From Deltaproteobacteria bacterium (GTDB lineage Bacteria > Desulfobacterota > GWC2-55-46 > UBA9637): a DNA stretch of 64,000 bases. Positions 39,432 to 46,299 of the stretch are shown here, piece by piece. The DNA lies in assembly GCA_030690165.1 (NCBI GenBank), contig JAUYHF010000042.1, forward strand, positions 1 to 64,000, given 5' to 3'. Within the stretch, counting starts at the first letter, position 1. The number at the start of each line of letters is the position of its first letter. Both the position numbers and the translations under genes were made by a program. The notes under the pieces were generated by a model, which did no database searches, had not been told where the DNA came from, and saw only the letters and a program-made list of their open reading frames with translations.

Positions 39432-40151
39432 ATGACAGACCATAAATTCCTCCCTCTTTTTTTCTTAAGTATACTGTTTCTATCCATCATCCCTGCCTAT
39501 TCTCAGGATGTATACGCAAAAAAACGGCAGATAATGATAGAGAAGGATATACGAGGACGGGGTATCACGGATAAAAAGCTTCTGGATGTGATGGGAAAGA
39601 CGCCCAGACACCTTTTTGTTGAAGGGCATCTCAGGGGTGCGGCCTATGAAGATTATCCCCTTCCCATAGATGAAGGTCAGACCATATCTCAGCCATATGT
39701 GGTTGCTTTGATGACCGAGGCATTGCGGCTTAAGCCTTCTGACAGGGTTCTGGAGATAGGCACAGGTTCAGGCTATCAGGCGGCTATTCTTGCAGAGATA
39801 GTGAAAGAGGTTTATACCATAGAGATTAGAAAAGGGCTTGCAGACAAGGCTGAAAAAAGGCTTAAAGAGATGGGCTATAAAAATGTAAAAGTCAGGTATG
39901 GGGATGGATATTTTGGTTGGGAAGAATATGCGCCGTTTGATGCTATAATCATCACTGCTGCCGCAAATCATATCCCACCATCATTAATCAAGCAATTAAA
40001 GGAAGGCGGAAAGCTAATCATACCGCTTGGGAGCACTGTCTACAGCCAGACCCTTATTCTGGCCATAAAGAAAAAGGGCGAACTTGATTTGGAAGAGATA
40101 ACGTCCGTGAGATTTGTCCCTATGATTGGCGAGGCGGAGAAGGGAAGGTAA
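39432..40151 (+). CDS. pcm: Protein-L-isoaspartate O-methyltransferase with signal peptide
   Basis: 239 residues. A clear signal sequence ([18 protein letters not shown], cleavage before Q-D) precedes a full Pcm: the R-x-x-F-V region, [15 protein letters not shown], and SAM motif [11 protein letters not shown]. It repairs isoaspartyl residues. An exported location is odd because SAM is cytoplasmic. 22 bases after the exported esterase. Its last 32 bases overlap the convergent gene. Confidence 0.85.
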
Positions 40152-42519
40152 AAAAGGCAAGGGCATATGAAATACCGCCCATCCAGAGGACTGCCTTAAA
40201 ACCAATGACTATAGCCAGCATGATGGTGAGTATAGGCGCTAGAACAGAGAAACAACCATTGACGGCCCATGCCCACGGAATGAGAGAGGGATTTCCTGCG
40301 CCAAGCGACTTAATCCCGAGCGGAAACGGTATCCCCATAAGGAAACCGAGCGGAATAAGCACAATAAATGACATGACAATTTTAATCGATAATGCATGGG
40401 GAGAAATAGCATCAGAGATTGCGGGTATAATAAGGCTGTATACAATAACGAGAAATGAGATTACAAAAAGCATAGCCCGGTTTCTTAGCAAAGAAAATCT
40501 GTGGCTCAAAAGACTTCCCGTACCGGAACTAATCAGTATGGATGTAAGGACAACGCTAACAGCATAAGAAGGATTTTCCAGAGGGAGGATCATCTTCTGA
40601 ATCATGGTGATTTCTACGAACATAAAGCCAAGGCCGAGGAGGGCAAAATAGATAAGGGAGGTATAATTGTCCTTACGTTGCGTATCCCCACGTCTTTTTG
40701 CAACAGCAGGTAGAAATATAAAAATGATACTCAGTAGCAGAGCCTGTATAAAAACCACAGGGAGGAGATACCCCTCTTCTATAAAATACTGCCACTTTTC
40801 ACCCATCGTCCTGTAGATTGTTTTTATATTCTTGAGCCTTAAGTAATAGGGGAAAAACGGATTTTCATCCCGGACAGGGCTTATGTCAAAAATATAATTA
40901 CGCTGAAAATTCTCCCGTGTTCCGGGATCAAGAATATTCTTAAATGCCGCAAAATATTCATTTGAAGGCAGCCGCACATAAATATTTGTTTCTTGTTCTG
41001 TAATCCCAGGAAGATATATAAGGTCAAACCTCCTTTCCCTGCAAAATTTTTTCACAGATTCTATTTCGTCAAAAGAAAATGGCGTTTTTTTTGCAAGAAT
41101 AGATACAGTTCCCCAGCTTCTTATAGCTGCAATATTTTTATCTGCATCCGCTATCCCGCTTTCATTCATTGCCAAAACCATAGTGTTTAAAAGCCTTAAC
41201 TCTGTCCTCGGCGGATGGAGAATGAAGAGGTGTATGCTCAGTATGCCATTATCTTTTAAATGCCCCAGATATTCTTTGAATGCCTCAATAGTAAATCTGT
41301 AATCCTCTGAGATTCCAAAAAAGCCTCCAGGAGAAGCGCCCATTAAGGGAATATCAATGGCATCAAATTTTTTATCTCTCTTTTTAAGCCATGACCTTCC
41401 CATGCCGGACCATGTATTCTGGCTATAGATACCCTGAGAAAATTCTGTAAAATCATCTCGTATGACCTTTATGACCAGCGGGTTGGAATCGACCTTGTAG
41501 ATGTTTTTTGAGTTGTAATAGCGGGCCAGCAATACCTCCATGCCTCCTTTTGGCTCAAGAATTAACACATCGTCTTTTTTGCCAATCTCGTAAGAAAGGG
41601 CAGAGGGGAGGTATGTTAAAAACTTAAGCGCCCGGTTATCTCCGGCGGTAAGGGCATTTATTTCGCCTCCATCAATGGAAAGGCCAATCTGTTCAGGAAG
41701 CGGATCGAGATATTTCAGGCTCAGCCCCGGTGCGAACCGTGCCGCAGGGCTTTTAAATGTGTCTATACGTGAATATGGGCTGTTGTATGTCCTGATATGT
41801 TCTGCCCCCGGAAATTTTAAAGCAACCTGAAGACCTTTGTACGGAGACATTCTTGGAATAATGATGTTCGGCATGGTTAAAAGGAAAAAATTTAATGCAA
41901 TCAGGCATAGCGCAGCAATCTTTATCCTCCGCTGCCCAATGATAAATGCGCCCAATAATGCCAGTGAAGCTGTAATAATAATAGCCTTCTCAGGAGGCAT
42001 TATGCTCAATAAAAAGAGAATAACAATTGAGCCTGTGCCTGCGCCAAGAAGGTCTGAGCCATATAACAGCCCTGATTTTTCACTTATCATGGAAAACGCA
42101 GATGCCATACAAAACCCGAAAAAGAGAAATGGGATAGAAAGTATCATGTAGTAAAGGAATATATAAAAAATCTGAACTTTTTCCCATGCAAGCCTTACGG
42201 GGTCAAAGGGTATCTGGTTTGAAATGATGTAACTTAAGGATATGCCCGCGCCAAGGAGCAGACCATATATTCCAATCCGTTCATATGGGAAGGAGCTATC
42301 CCCTCCCTTTTGGCTGGCCACATAGGTCGCCCCTGCAATTTTCGGATATAGTGAAAGAACCGTGCCGCTTGCGCCAATACCCAGCATTGCTATACTGATA
42401 ATCATGAATGCAAAGTGATACCATAGCGATATGGAGAATATCCTTATTAAGGCTATCTCATATGCAAGGGATGAAAATGAGAAGAGAAAGATTGCTGCGT
42501 ATATCTTTATTTTTGTCAT
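40120..42519 (-). CDS. Membrane protein with spermidine-synthase-like domain
   Basis: 799 residues. About six N-terminal transmembrane segments (starting [14 protein letters not shown]), a soluble middle with a Rossmann methyltransferase/aminopropyltransferase-like fold ([10 protein letters not shown], then V-D-S-N-P), and about seven C-terminal segments. The glycine loop is altered (K-G-G-M rather than the usual G-G-G-D-G), so catalysis is uncertain. Proteins of this layout are widespread and unassigned. It overlaps pcm at the 3' end. Confidence 0.7.
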
Positions 42520-42590: not shown

Positions 42591-42619
42591 CCCCGCCACC
42601 AAAAGTTTTGGTGTGGGGG
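42591..42619. repeat. Hairpin in the leader of the P-type ATPase gene
   Basis: CCCCGCCACCAAAA, G, TTTTGGTGTGGGGG: an imperfect stem closing on one base, 19 bases before the ATG. A TTGACA at 42551-42556 lies upstream. The hairpin would be in the 5' leader and may affect translation or be part of an operator. Confidence 0.45.
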
Positions 42620-42638: not shown

Positions 42639-45600
42639 ATGAATCTATCCTCTCTCCTCTCCCAAGACCATATCTTCATAGACTTCACAGCAAAAGGCCA
42701 TACAGAGGCCTTGAAAAATATGGTCTGCCTTCTTGGCAAGGTATGCGAGGATGAGGAGTCGCTGAGGACGCTCAAAGACCATGAGAGCATAGACGGCGTG
42801 CTGGCAGGCACAGGCTCCGCAATATTCCACACATTTTCAGAGGCAGCAGAGGACATTAAAATTGTCCTTGCTGTTTCTACCTCCGGGATCCCCCATCCAA
42901 CAAGAAAAAAAGAAAAGATTAATATGCTCTGGCTTGTTGTATCTCCTATAAAAGAAAGCGGCACGCATTTTCAGCTCCTATCCCATCTGGAAGGCCTTCT
43001 TTTAAATAATATCTTCCGCAAGGAAGTCCTTGCTGCAAAAACCAAAGATGCTGTCATAAGCATAGTGAAAAGAGAAGAAGGGTCGGGCAGGGACGCATAC
43101 ATCCCTTTAACAAGGGAAGAGATTTTATCCGAGCTTAATACGCTGGAAACAGGGCTTGCGGACAGAGAGGCCCTTCACAGGCTTGCAGTTGTTGGCCCTA
43201 ATATACTTAAAAGGGTTGCAAGAAAGCATCTTCTCTATGATTTTTTGCAAAATCTGACAAACCTCTTTGCAATACTTCTGTGGCTTGGCGGCGCATTGTC
43301 ATTTGTTGCGGGCATGCCTGAACTCGGCTGGGCCATTTTCCTTGTCATTATGATAAATGCGTCATTCAGCTTCTGGCAGGAGTATAAGGCAGAGAGGGCC
43401 GTGGAGGCGCTGCAAAAACTTCTTCCCCAAAAGGTAAAGGTTATAAGGGAAGGAAAAGAAAGAGAGATTTCAAGCAGCTGGCTTGTGCCAGGAGATATTA
43501 TTCTTCTGAACGAGGGCGATAATATACCTGCCGACGGAAGGCTTATACAGGCTGACGATATGCGGGTTGACAACAGCCCGTTAACAGGAGAGTCAAGGCC
43601 GGTATATAAAGTGGCAGAGTCTCTGGAAAACGGAAAGAATTTTATCTGGACAGAGATGCCTAATCTTATATTTGCAGGTACTAGCGTCCTTTCAGGCATT
43701 GGCAAGGCAGTTGTTACAGCAACAGGCATGGATACAGAGATTGGCAAGGTTGCCTATCTTACCCAGGCTATAAAGGCTGAAATGAGCCCGTTGCAAAAAG
43801 AGATGATAAGACTAACTAGGGTGGTCACATGGATTGCAATAAGCCTCGGTGTGTTGTTTTTCCTGCTCGGTTTTAAGATAGCAGGGCTTACATATCTGGA
43901 GAGTTTTATATTCGCCATAGGCATCATTGTTGCAAATGTGCCGGAGGGTCTGCTTCCTACAGTGAGCCTCTCCCTTGCAATGGGTGTCCAGAGGATGGCG
44001 GGGAAAAATGCCATTGTGAAAAAACTTTCTGCTGTGGAAACACTCGGCTCGGTAAATGTTATATGCACTGACAAGACAGGCACTCTTACCACGAACGAGA
44101 TGTGTGTAAAAAGGCTTTGGGTTAATGGAAAAGATGTTGAGGTTACAGGAAGAGGGTATGAGCCGCAAGGAGATTTTGTGCTAAGCGGTAATGTTCTTTC
44201 CCGTGAGGAACTGAAAAAGGATGGTGTAGAGGAACTTCTGAAGGCAGCGAGCCTTTGCAATAATACACATCTTATTGTCCCTTTACAAAAGGGCGCAAGC
44301 GGGGGTTGGTCAATTTCAGGCGACCCAACAGAGGGCGCATTGATTGTTGCTGCTGAAAAGGCAGGCCTTAAAATGGATGAACTGAAAGAGAAGAACCCAA
44401 GAATCGCCCACCTTTCCTTTGAAAGAATAAGGAAGAGGATGACGACGATACATGAAGACAGGGGTCAGGGGTCAGGGGTCGGGGGTCAGAAGGTCGTGGC
44501 ATATATAAAGGGTGCGCCGACTGAGGTTTTAAATCTCTGCGTTAATATAAAGGAAGGCGGGGATGTTGTCAGGCTTACAAAAGAAAAAAGGGATGAAATT
44601 TTAAGGCAGAATGACTTGATGGCAGGGGATGGTTTAAGGGTTCTGGCTGCTGCATATAGAGAAATTACCGAAGGCATAAAATACACAGTTGAAGAGGTGG
44701 AGAAGGATTTAACATTCCTCGGCCTTATTGCTATGTTTGATCCGCCGAGGCCGGAGGTTAAAAAGGCAATCGGAGAATGTCATACTGCCGGTATCAGGGT
44801 AATAGTAATGACAGGCGACTACGGTTTGACTGCCCATGCAATTGCAAAAGAGATAGGCATAGGCGGAGACGATACAAAGGTTATAACGGGTCTTGAGCTT
44901 TCAAGACTTTCCCACAGGGAATTAAGGGATGTCCTGAAACAGGGCGAGGTTATATTTGCCAGAGTCCAGCCAAAGGACAAACTCAGGGTTGTTGCCGCGC
45001 TTCAGGAGTTCGGAGAGATTGTGGCAGTTACAGGCGATGGCGTGAATGATGCGCCGGCATTAAAAAAGGCGGACATCGGCATTGCAATGGGGATGCGGGG
45101 AAGCGATGTGGCAAAAGAGGCGGCAGAGATAGTCCTTGCAGATGACAACTTTGCAACCATTGTAGAGGCAATAAGAGAAGGCAGGGCAGTATATTCAAAT
45201 ATAAAAAAGTTTGTGACATATATCTTTGCCAGCAATATACCTGAGATTATTCCATTTATTGCCTTTGCTATTTTTAAGATTCCGCTTCCTTTAACCGTAA
45301 TACAGATATTAGCTGTGGATTTGGGCACAGATGTTGTCCCTGCCCTCGGTCTCGGTATAGAGCCTCCCGAAGAAGGGATAATGAACCAGCCGCCGAGACC
45401 AAAGACAAAAAGGCTTCTTGATTTTTCTCTGCTTGCGAGGGCGTATCTTTTTCTCGGCCCAATAGAGGCGGTTTTATGCATGGCTGGATTCTTCTTTGTT
45501 TACTGGTCAAGCGGATGGCGGCCCGGAATGGAGATGCCTTCAAGTGGCATTATCTACACAACAGCCACAACCATGACACTTGCAGGCATTGTTGCATCTC

Positions 45601-45857
45601 AAATTGGAAATGTGTTTGCGTGCCGGACTGAAAAAGAGTCGATGTTCAGCGTAGGTTTTTTTAAGAATAAACTTGTCCTCTTTGGTATTTTGACCGAGAT
45701 ATCGCTTATCCTCTTTCTTACATATACGCCATTTATGCAAAACATCTTCGGCCTTGCGCCGTTGGGATGGAGGGAATGGGGATTTTTACTAGTTTTTCCG
45801 GTGATTGTGCTATTGATGGAGGAGGGAAGAAAGTGGGTGGTAAGAACCTTGTTTTGA
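42639..45857 (+). CDS. PTS EIIA-like domain fused to a P2-type cation ATPase
   Basis: 1072 residues. Residues 1-150 are an EIIA (fructose/nitrogen-type) domain: candidate phospho-His H64 in G-S-A-I-F-H, then I-N-M-L-W-L-V-V-S-P and H-F-Q-L-L-S-H-L. From about 165 it is a P-type ATPase with L-T-G-E-S, D478-K-T-G-T-L-T, K-G-A-P-T and T-G-D-G-V-N-D-A-P. Membrane motifs V-P-E-G-L (E436), S865-N-I-P-E869 and D894-L-G-T-D898 match those lining the cation sites of Na,K-ATPase rather than SERCA, so Na+, K+ or a similar cation is likely. A small repeat-encoded insert lies in the nucleotide domain. A fusion with EIIA suggests control by PTS phosphorylation. Confidence 0.85.
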   Translation: MNLSSLLSQDHIFIDFTAKGHTEALKNMVCLLGKVCEDEESLRTLKDHESIDGVLAGTGSAIFHTFSEAAEDIKIVLAVSTSGIPHPTRKKEKINMLWLVVSPIKESGTHFQLLSHLEGLLLNNIFRKEVLAAKTKDAVISIVKREEGSGRDAYIPLTREEILSELNTLETGLADREALHRLAVVGPNILKRVARKHLLYDFLQNLTNLFAILLWLGGALSFVAGMPELGWAIFLVIMINASFSFWQEYKAERAVEALQKLLPQKVKVIREGKEREISSSWLVPGDIILLNEGDNIPADGRLIQADDMRVDNSPLTGESRPVYKVAESLENGKNFIWTEMPNLIFAGTSVLSGIGKAVVTATGMDTEIGKVAYLTQAIKAEMSPLQKEMIRLTRVVTWIAISLGVLFFLLGFKIAGLTYLESFIFAIGIIVANVPEGLLPTVSLSLAMGVQRMAGKNAIVKKLSAVETLGSVNVICTDKTGTLTTNEMCVKRLWVNGKDVEVTGRGYEPQGDFVLSGNVLSREELKKDGVEELLKAASLCNNTHLIVPLQKGASGGWSISGDPTEGALIVAAEKAGLKMDELKEKNPRIAHLSFERIRKRMTTIHEDRGQGSGVGGQKVVAYIKGAPTEVLNLCVNIKEGGDVVRLTKEKRDEILRQNDLMAGDGLRVLAAAYREITEGIKYTVEEVEKDLTFLGLIAMFDPPRPEVKKAIGECHTAGIRVIVMTGDYGLTAHAIAKEIGIGGDDTKVITGLELSRLSHRELRDVLKQGEVIFARVQPKDKLRVVAALQEFGEIVAVTGDGVNDAPALKKADIGIAMGMRGSDVAKEAAEIVLADDNFATIVEAIREGRAVYSNIKKFVTYIFASNIPEIIPFIAFAIFKIPLPLTVIQILAVDLGTDVVPALGLGIEPPEEGIMNQPPRPKTKRLLDFSLLARAYLFLGPIEAVLCMAGFFFVYWSSGWRPGMEMPSSGIIYTTATTMTLAGIVASQIGNVFACRTEKESMFSVGFFKNKLVLFGILTEISLILFLTYTPFMQNIFGLAPLGWREWGFLLVFPVIVLLMEEGRKWVVRTLF
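44460..44489 (+). repeat. GGGGTCA heptad repeat inside the P-type ATPase gene
   Basis: Three GGGGTCA-type units and one variant GGGGGTC encode R-G-Q-G-S-G-V-G-G-Q in a surface loop just before V-A-Y-I-K-G-A-P. The sequence shares a 23-base core with the metH insert at 30612-30646. The reading frame is preserved. Confidence 0.85.
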
Positions 45858-45923: not shown

Positions 45924-46005
45924 CTATTCAGTTTAAGGATAAATTTAAACTTGATGATGCTTAAAAAACAGCTATTTGAGCATATACAAAATAAAGGGGG
46001 TATAT

Positions 46006-46299
46006 ATGGGTATGAAAACCCCGGCACTCTTAAAGATGATAGATATACCCCGGCAAAAGCTGTATTATCTGGAGCAGAAGGGATATATAAACCCGCACAA
46101 GATTATAATTGGAGAGAAAAATTTCCGCGAATATAGTGAAGAGGATATAAAAAAGATAGAGTGTATATGGAAATATCTCAAGAAGGGTTTTAAATACAGG
46201 GTAGCGCATGAGAAGGCTCATGAGGAATTGAGTAATCCGCAAATGGCTCTTATTAAAAATCTCCCGCCAAGGGATGAAACAAAAAAGGAGGAAAAATAA
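46006..46299 (+). CDS. MerR-family transcriptional regulator
   Basis: 97 residues. A winged-helix MerR DNA-binding domain: K-T-P-A-L-L-K-M-I-D-I-P-R-Q-K-L-Y-Y-L-E-Q-K-G-Y, then R-E-Y-S-E-E-D-I-K-K-I. The C-terminus is short and has no obvious effector-binding Cys cluster, so it may sense by dimerisation only. GGGGG precedes the ATG at 46006. The stop overlaps the kamA start (TAATG), so it is probably the local regulator of kamA. Confidence 0.8.
   Translation: MGMKTPALLKMIDIPRQKLYYLEQKGYINPHKIIIGEKNFREYSEEDIKKIECIWKYLKKGFKYRVAHEKAHEELSNPQMALIKNLPPRDETKKEEK

Follow-up and report, generated by a model that had tools for sequence, protein, structure and literature searches.

An EIIA domain of the PTS fused to a P2C-like P-type ATPase suggests that phosphoenolpyruvate switches a cation pump in a groundwater bacterium and its relatives

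One gene of the window, by which we mean the whole 64,000-nucleotide stretch of DNA analysed here, raises the question of why an EIIA domain of the PTS should be joined to an ion pump resembling Na,K-ATPase, and whether such a pump could be controlled by phosphoenolpyruvate (PEP). The original prediction, that an EIIA domain and a complete P-type ATPase share a single open reading frame, is borne out: the frame at 42639-45857 (+) encodes one intact protein of 1072 aa in which Pfam recognises PTS_EIIA_2 (PF00359) at residues 6-145 (E 3.1e-13, 50.4 bits, cut-off 27), followed by Cation_ATPase_N (158-221), E1-E2_ATPase, Cation_ATPase, HAD, and Cation_ATPase_C (882-1067). The same architecture is kept across many independent contigs and genomes; the fusion is therefore real and inherited, and an assembly chimera is ruled out as its source. 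The positions of the domains and key residues are given in Table 1.

Table 1 Features of the EIIA-P-type ATPase fusion, in window coordinates.
Feature	Position	Strand	Basis or detail
EIIA-P2C ATPase fusion gene	42639..45857	+	1072 aa, ATG start, stop 45855-45857
PTS EIIA domain (Fru/Mtl/Ntr type, PF00359), residues 6-145	42654..43073	+	Pfam, AlphaFold2 fold
His48, at the column of the conserved Arg in the genome's PtsN ('ERE' motif)	42780..42782	+	Alignment
His64, candidate phospho-His, at the column of the His in 'AIPHVR' of PtsN	42828..42830	+	22/22 fusions
His110, in line with 'AHLKIL' of PtsN, the region of the second active-site His	42966..42968	+	20/22 fusions
Short linker between EIIA and pump, residues 146-157	43074..43109	+	Gap between Pfam domains
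Complete P2C-like P-type ATPase, residues 158-1072	43110..45854	+	Pfam, alignment, tree, fold
TM4 VANVPEGLL (residues 431-439), the same in Na,K-ATPase, with E436 at E327	43929..43955	+	Alignment
Asp478 of DKTGT, catalytic phospho-Asp, invariant	44070..44072	+	Sequence
TM5 TYIFASNIPEIIPF, residues 860-873; Y861, S865, N866, E869 match Na,K-ATPase	45216..45257	+	Alignment
TM6 DLGTD, residues 894-898 = D804...D808 of Na,K-ATPase	45318..45332	+	Alignment
TM8 Gln988 = Q923; N991, three residues further, replaces D926	45600..45602	+	Alignment
TM9 Glu1020 = E954; T1019 at the E953 position	45696..45698	+	Alignment

Close homologs that have the full fusion are found in metagenome-assembled genomes (MAGs) labelled as Deltaproteobacteria, several of them from groundwater, and in one Nitrospinota MAG, with more divergent homologs in one Spirochaetota MAG. 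Among 395 genomes of the window's phylum, 13 encode the full fusion and one gave a partial match; within the same class it is present in 8 of the 17 genomes sampled. The groundwater MAG JACPZB01 has two EIIA-P2C fusion genes, L006 (JACPZB010000006) and L016 (JACPZB010000045).

The class of the pump was assessed by comparison with solved structures, by phylogeny, and by the residues of the ion path. The whole fusion scores highest against Na,K-ATPase (555 bits), followed by SPCA1 (488), LMCA1 (463), and SERCA (447), whereas a bacterial P2A control from Paenibacillus gives 677 bits for LMCA1, 639 for SPCA1, 572 for SERCA, and 442 for Na,K-ATPase. Na,K-ATPases are also the best fold matches of the full-protein model (pTM 0.63). 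A maximum likelihood tree was constructed from 78 pumps, in which the P2 references were of the P2A and P2C types and E. coli MgtA served as a distant one; the window protein falls in a 27-row clade with the shark Na,K-ATPase (SH-aLRT 100), and LMCA1 and SPCA1 lie outside. A smaller second tree of 46 rows gave the same placement with Na,K-ATPase and outside P2A.

The motifs V-P-E-G, S-N-I-P-E, and D-L-G-T-D, from which a P2C-like pump had been proposed, are present and align column by column with the shark Na,K-ATPase; SPCA1 and LMCA1 differ at these positions, and TM6 of the window pump reads DLGTD, not the P2A-type N-x-x-x-D. For the Na,K-ATPase sites we use the customary position numbers, from E327 to E954. 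In the alignment, E436, Y861, S865, N866, and E869 then correspond to E327, Y771, S775, N776, and E779, and D894, D898, Q988, and E1020 to D804, D808, Q923, and E954. The full third Na+ site (D926, E953/E954) is not kept in the window pump: E1020 is retained, but N991 replaces D926 and T1019 replaces E953, so the site is partly kept and a 3Na+/2K+ stoichiometry is not established. These losses bear on the stoichiometry, not on membership of the P2C clade.

The same two replacements could be read in favor of a Ca2+ (P2A-like) or H+/K+ pump whose ion path had become convergent with that of Na,K-ATPase, in which case the P2C label would be wrong, and the NCBIfam PMR1-type and IIC-type models do score similarly (639.8 and 633.5 bits, both below cut-off). 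We consider this improbable, given the support of 100 in the first tree, the agreement of the second, the ranking of the solved structures, and the retention of all main site I and II residues, including the equivalent of D804, a position occupied by Asn in the Ca2+ pump references. H,K-ATPase has Lys at the S775 position, whereas the window pump has Ser865. Taken on the tree, the ranking of structures, and the cation-site residues, the sequence identifies the pump as P2C-like, and the tree sets it apart from P2A, in agreement with the original prediction. The β-subunit assembly motif SYGQ/SYGE is absent from the window pump sequence, as it is from every prokaryotic member in a published survey (PMC9609216).

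Nested among the fusions in the tree are four unfused pumps from Gram-positive bacteria and Chloroflexota (Lactobacillus, Streptococcus, and Leptolinea), and a single clade for all fusions is not rejected (p-AU 0.305); both a single origin with loss of the EIIA domain and several origins are possible. Sisters of the fusion family include the unfused P2C-like pumps L014, L017, L019-L021, L023, L024, L027, L028, and L073 of Streptococcus, Lactobacillus, and Leptolinea, which carry DLG(T/S)D and SNxxE motifs. For one of them, L021, the best PDB match is split between LMCA1 and Na,K-ATPase.

The N-terminal domain is predicted to have the EIIA-Mtl/Ntr fold seen in IIA-Ntr structures. An AlphaFold2 model built from 12 family sequences has a mean pLDDT of 86.6, and its best PDB matches are IIA-Ntr of Neisseria (2a0j, TM 0.79/0.81) and of E. 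coli (1a6j), at a TM of about 0.8. IIA-Mtl and other IIA proteins follow in Foldseek, and the next matches include the SLC4 cytoplasmic domains of band 3, AE2, NDCBE, and BTR1. Among the NCBIfam models that match within the domain, the fructose type is best (TIGR00848, 35.8 bits), with nitro_reg_IIA at 13.6 bits. We aligned the EIIA domains of 22 distinct fusions, mainly from Deltaproteobacteria, together with Nitrospinota and Spirochaetota records. The domains diverge widely, and His64 is the sole column without exception; it aligns with the phospho-His of the PtsN encoded in the same genome. This conservation, the PtsN alignment, the EIIA sequence match, and the predicted fold uphold the earlier choice of His64 as the candidate phospho-His.

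The site around His64 is altered in most fusions, since Arg has changed to His and Pro to Phe, each in 15 of the 22. The conserved active-site Arg of canonical EIIA, which precedes the GxG...PH loop, is absent from the window fusion, which has His48 there, and Arg occupies that column in only one fusion (L093, genome G061), whose EIIA site is fully canonical ('REAVDTTALGQGVSFPHAR') and which scores 101 bits to PF00359. The Pro replaced by Phe is the one that precedes the phospho-His. A retained His with a changed second shell would be compatible with a working but specialised site, and is no proof of phosphorylation. The changed Arg and Pro, together with the SLC4 domains among the Foldseek matches, lend some weight to another explanation, that the EIIA fold serves as a phosphorylation-independent regulatory or scaffold module, as in SLC4 proteins, with His64 kept for metal binding, pH sensing, or structure. 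However, a single invariant His column accompanied by a nearly invariant second His is the pattern of a catalytic site, and the fully canonical site of L093 also speaks for phosphorylation.

A phosphorylated EIIA domain would depend on EI and HPr, and these were sought in the genomes that carry the fusion. The genome containing the window (2.2 Mb, ~100% complete) has exactly two EIIA_2 domains, one in the pump fusion and the other in PtsN on contig C51, which also encodes HPr (105.7 bits) and EI (641.8 bits). With the genes named by eye from the translations, hprK follows ptsN, and a mannose-type EIIC/EIID stretch leads into HPr and then EI; the HPr has the motifs GLHARAA (His15) and GKSIMG (Ser46). 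The genome holds a full PTS relay, outside the pump's contig. The EI and HPr that the original prediction proposed to look for are thus encoded, in one cluster with HPr kinase, PtsN, and mannose-type PTS genes, and its remark that the window has no further PTS component holds for EIIA_2, HPr, and EI, the families searched.

EI and HPr score above cut-off in 12 of 14 fusion-bearing genomes. Profile searches of the related genome G016 did not find them, although it encodes ptsN-hprK-rapZ-EIIA(Man)-EIIB-EIIC in order up to the contig end. Because that contig breaks off within the mannose EIIC gene, immediately short of the place that EIID-HPr-EI occupy in genome G000, an assembly gap is the most likely cause. 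In genome G378, which has the fusion, none of EI, HPr, PtsN, or RpoN was found, and the whole rpoN-ptsN-HPr-EI block is missing; this may reflect a missing contig, or a domain working without the relay. The G378 fusion is a further point for a scaffold module, but the presence of EI and HPr in nearly all host genomes counts against it, and with the conservation of His64 leads us to regard that explanation as unlikely.

The fusion gene stands alone, as shown by the near-absence of recurring neighbours: when 13 related loci were searched with the window neighbours, one neighbour recurred, once. The divergent gene at 40120-42519 (-) encodes a 799-aa, apparently multi-pass membrane protein that is spermidine-synthase-like by eye and matches no Pfam family at E 0.01. 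Shortly after the pump gene, a small MerR-type regulator (PF13411, 24.7 bits) is encoded at 45976-46299 (+) and overlaps a lysine 2,3-aminomutase-like gene that starts at 46299; in relatives this regulator was not found beside the fusion. Between the two divergent promoters, at 42597-42613, lies an inverted repeat, CACCAAAA/TTTTGGTG, which is some 25 bases from the pump ATG. We rejected this hairpin as a conserved regulator: it has no Rfam match above cut-off, folds weakly (z -1.4), and is absent upstream of the relatives.

Other K+ transporters were also sought. In the window's own genome TrkH/KtrB and KdpA were not found and Kup is present, which rules out the pump as the sole K+ uptake route. 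G303 is a relative that also encodes the fusion and whose genome is 100% complete. A search of it limited to TrkH/KtrB, KdpA, and Kup found none of the three; the fusion pump could therefore matter for K+ uptake there, and in G303 it may be a main importer of K+.

Together these results suggest that PEP, as a measure of fuel status, switches the pump up or down. We think it somewhat probable that the protein is a P2C-like primary cation pump with a built-in PTS regulator, with HPr~P acting on His64 to alter turnover. EI would take phosphate from PEP and pass it to HPr, and HPr~P would phosphorylate His64 of the N-terminal EIIA domain, as for free PtsN; the turnover of the pump would then depend on whether the tethered domain is phosphorylated. 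Most likely, unphosphorylated EIIA would slow the cycle by docking on the cytoplasmic domains of the pump (actuator, N, or P), and phosphorylation would free it. The pump would most likely export Na+ (possibly H+) and import K+. We infer the phosphorylation of His64, the transported ions, and the stoichiometry.

The mechanism is supported by the invariant His64, the predicted EIIA fold, the encoded EI and HPr, the P2C placement, and the precedents of PtsN and LacS. Unphosphorylated PtsN of E. coli binds and regulates TrkA, YcgO, and KdpD (PMC13104625), and LacS carries a fused EIIA-Glc-like domain, a substrate of HPr, through which transport is modulated (PMC10710835). Terminal autoinhibitory domains occur in some P-type ATPase families (PMC10654040). 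By analogy with PtsN, LacS, and these terminal domains, autoinhibition by unphosphorylated EIIA is favored, and the sign of control is perhaps inhibitory, a leaning that we hold only slightly. Against the mechanism stand the altered site around His64, the G378 fusion, the want of conserved neighbours that would point to a pathway, and Asn in place of D926.

Information could also pass in the opposite direction, the conformation or ion occupancy of the pump altering EIIA phosphorylation so that the domain, as an HPr~P sink, would report K+/Na+ status to the PTS. Phosphate exchange by EIIA proteins is reversible, and the HPr kinase and PtsN in the genome indicate that this PTS has regulatory outputs too. 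Yet in the known cases, PtsN-TrkA, PtsN-YcgO, and LacS, it is the PTS that acts on the transporter, and the fusion of one EIIA to one pump fits local control better than global signalling; we judge reverse flow very improbable. Returning to control of the pump by the PTS, the chances seem about even that this is a primary Na+/K+-type pump gated directly by the PEP phosphorelay through a covalent EIIA and reversible His phosphorylation.

We found no published EIIA-P-type ATPase fusion in the open literature searched, which covers subscription journals little; the parts and the principle are known, and the joining of a PTS domain to a primary Na,K-type pump appears to be undescribed. The archaeal P2C products are uncharacterised (PMC10654040), and according to a 2026 review the purpose of PTS control over K+ balance is still unclear (PMC13104625). 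The fusion joins these two puzzles, the role of the prokaryotic relatives of Na,K-ATPase and the link between the PTS and K+, on one polypeptide. If the switch works, PEP-derived His phosphorylation would join the known modes of P-type pump regulation, and K+/Na+ gradients would be tied to glycolytic and carbon status throughout an entire class of groundwater bacteria that have not been cultured.

Compared with the Na,K-ATPase α-subunit and other P2C ATPases, including archaeal and bacterial ones, the window pump belongs to the same clade and has the TM4, TM5, and TM6 cation residues and complete pump domains. It differs from Na,K-ATPase α in lacking SYGQ, in the equivalents of D926N and E953T in site III, and in its N-terminal EIIA. 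With the control of TrkA, YcgO, and KdpD by PtsN it shares the domain family, the fold, and a K+ transporter as target; PtsN, however, is a free protein that acts on secondary transporters and a sensor kinase, whereas the window EIIA is a covalent part of an ATP-driven pump and by sequence scores closer to EIIA-Fru models than to PtsN. LacS of streptococci and lactobacilli is likewise a transporter with a tethered EIIA, placed there at the C terminus. The LacS domain, which HPr phosphorylates (PMC10710835), is of the EIIA-Glc family and serves a sugar carrier, in contrast to the PF00359 EIIA and ATP-driven pump of the window fusion. The SLC4 anion exchangers are likewise ion transporters with an N-terminal EIIA-like fold, that of the band 3 cytoplasmic domain, but they are animal proteins that offer no target for PTS phosphorylation and belong to another type of transporter than the window pump.
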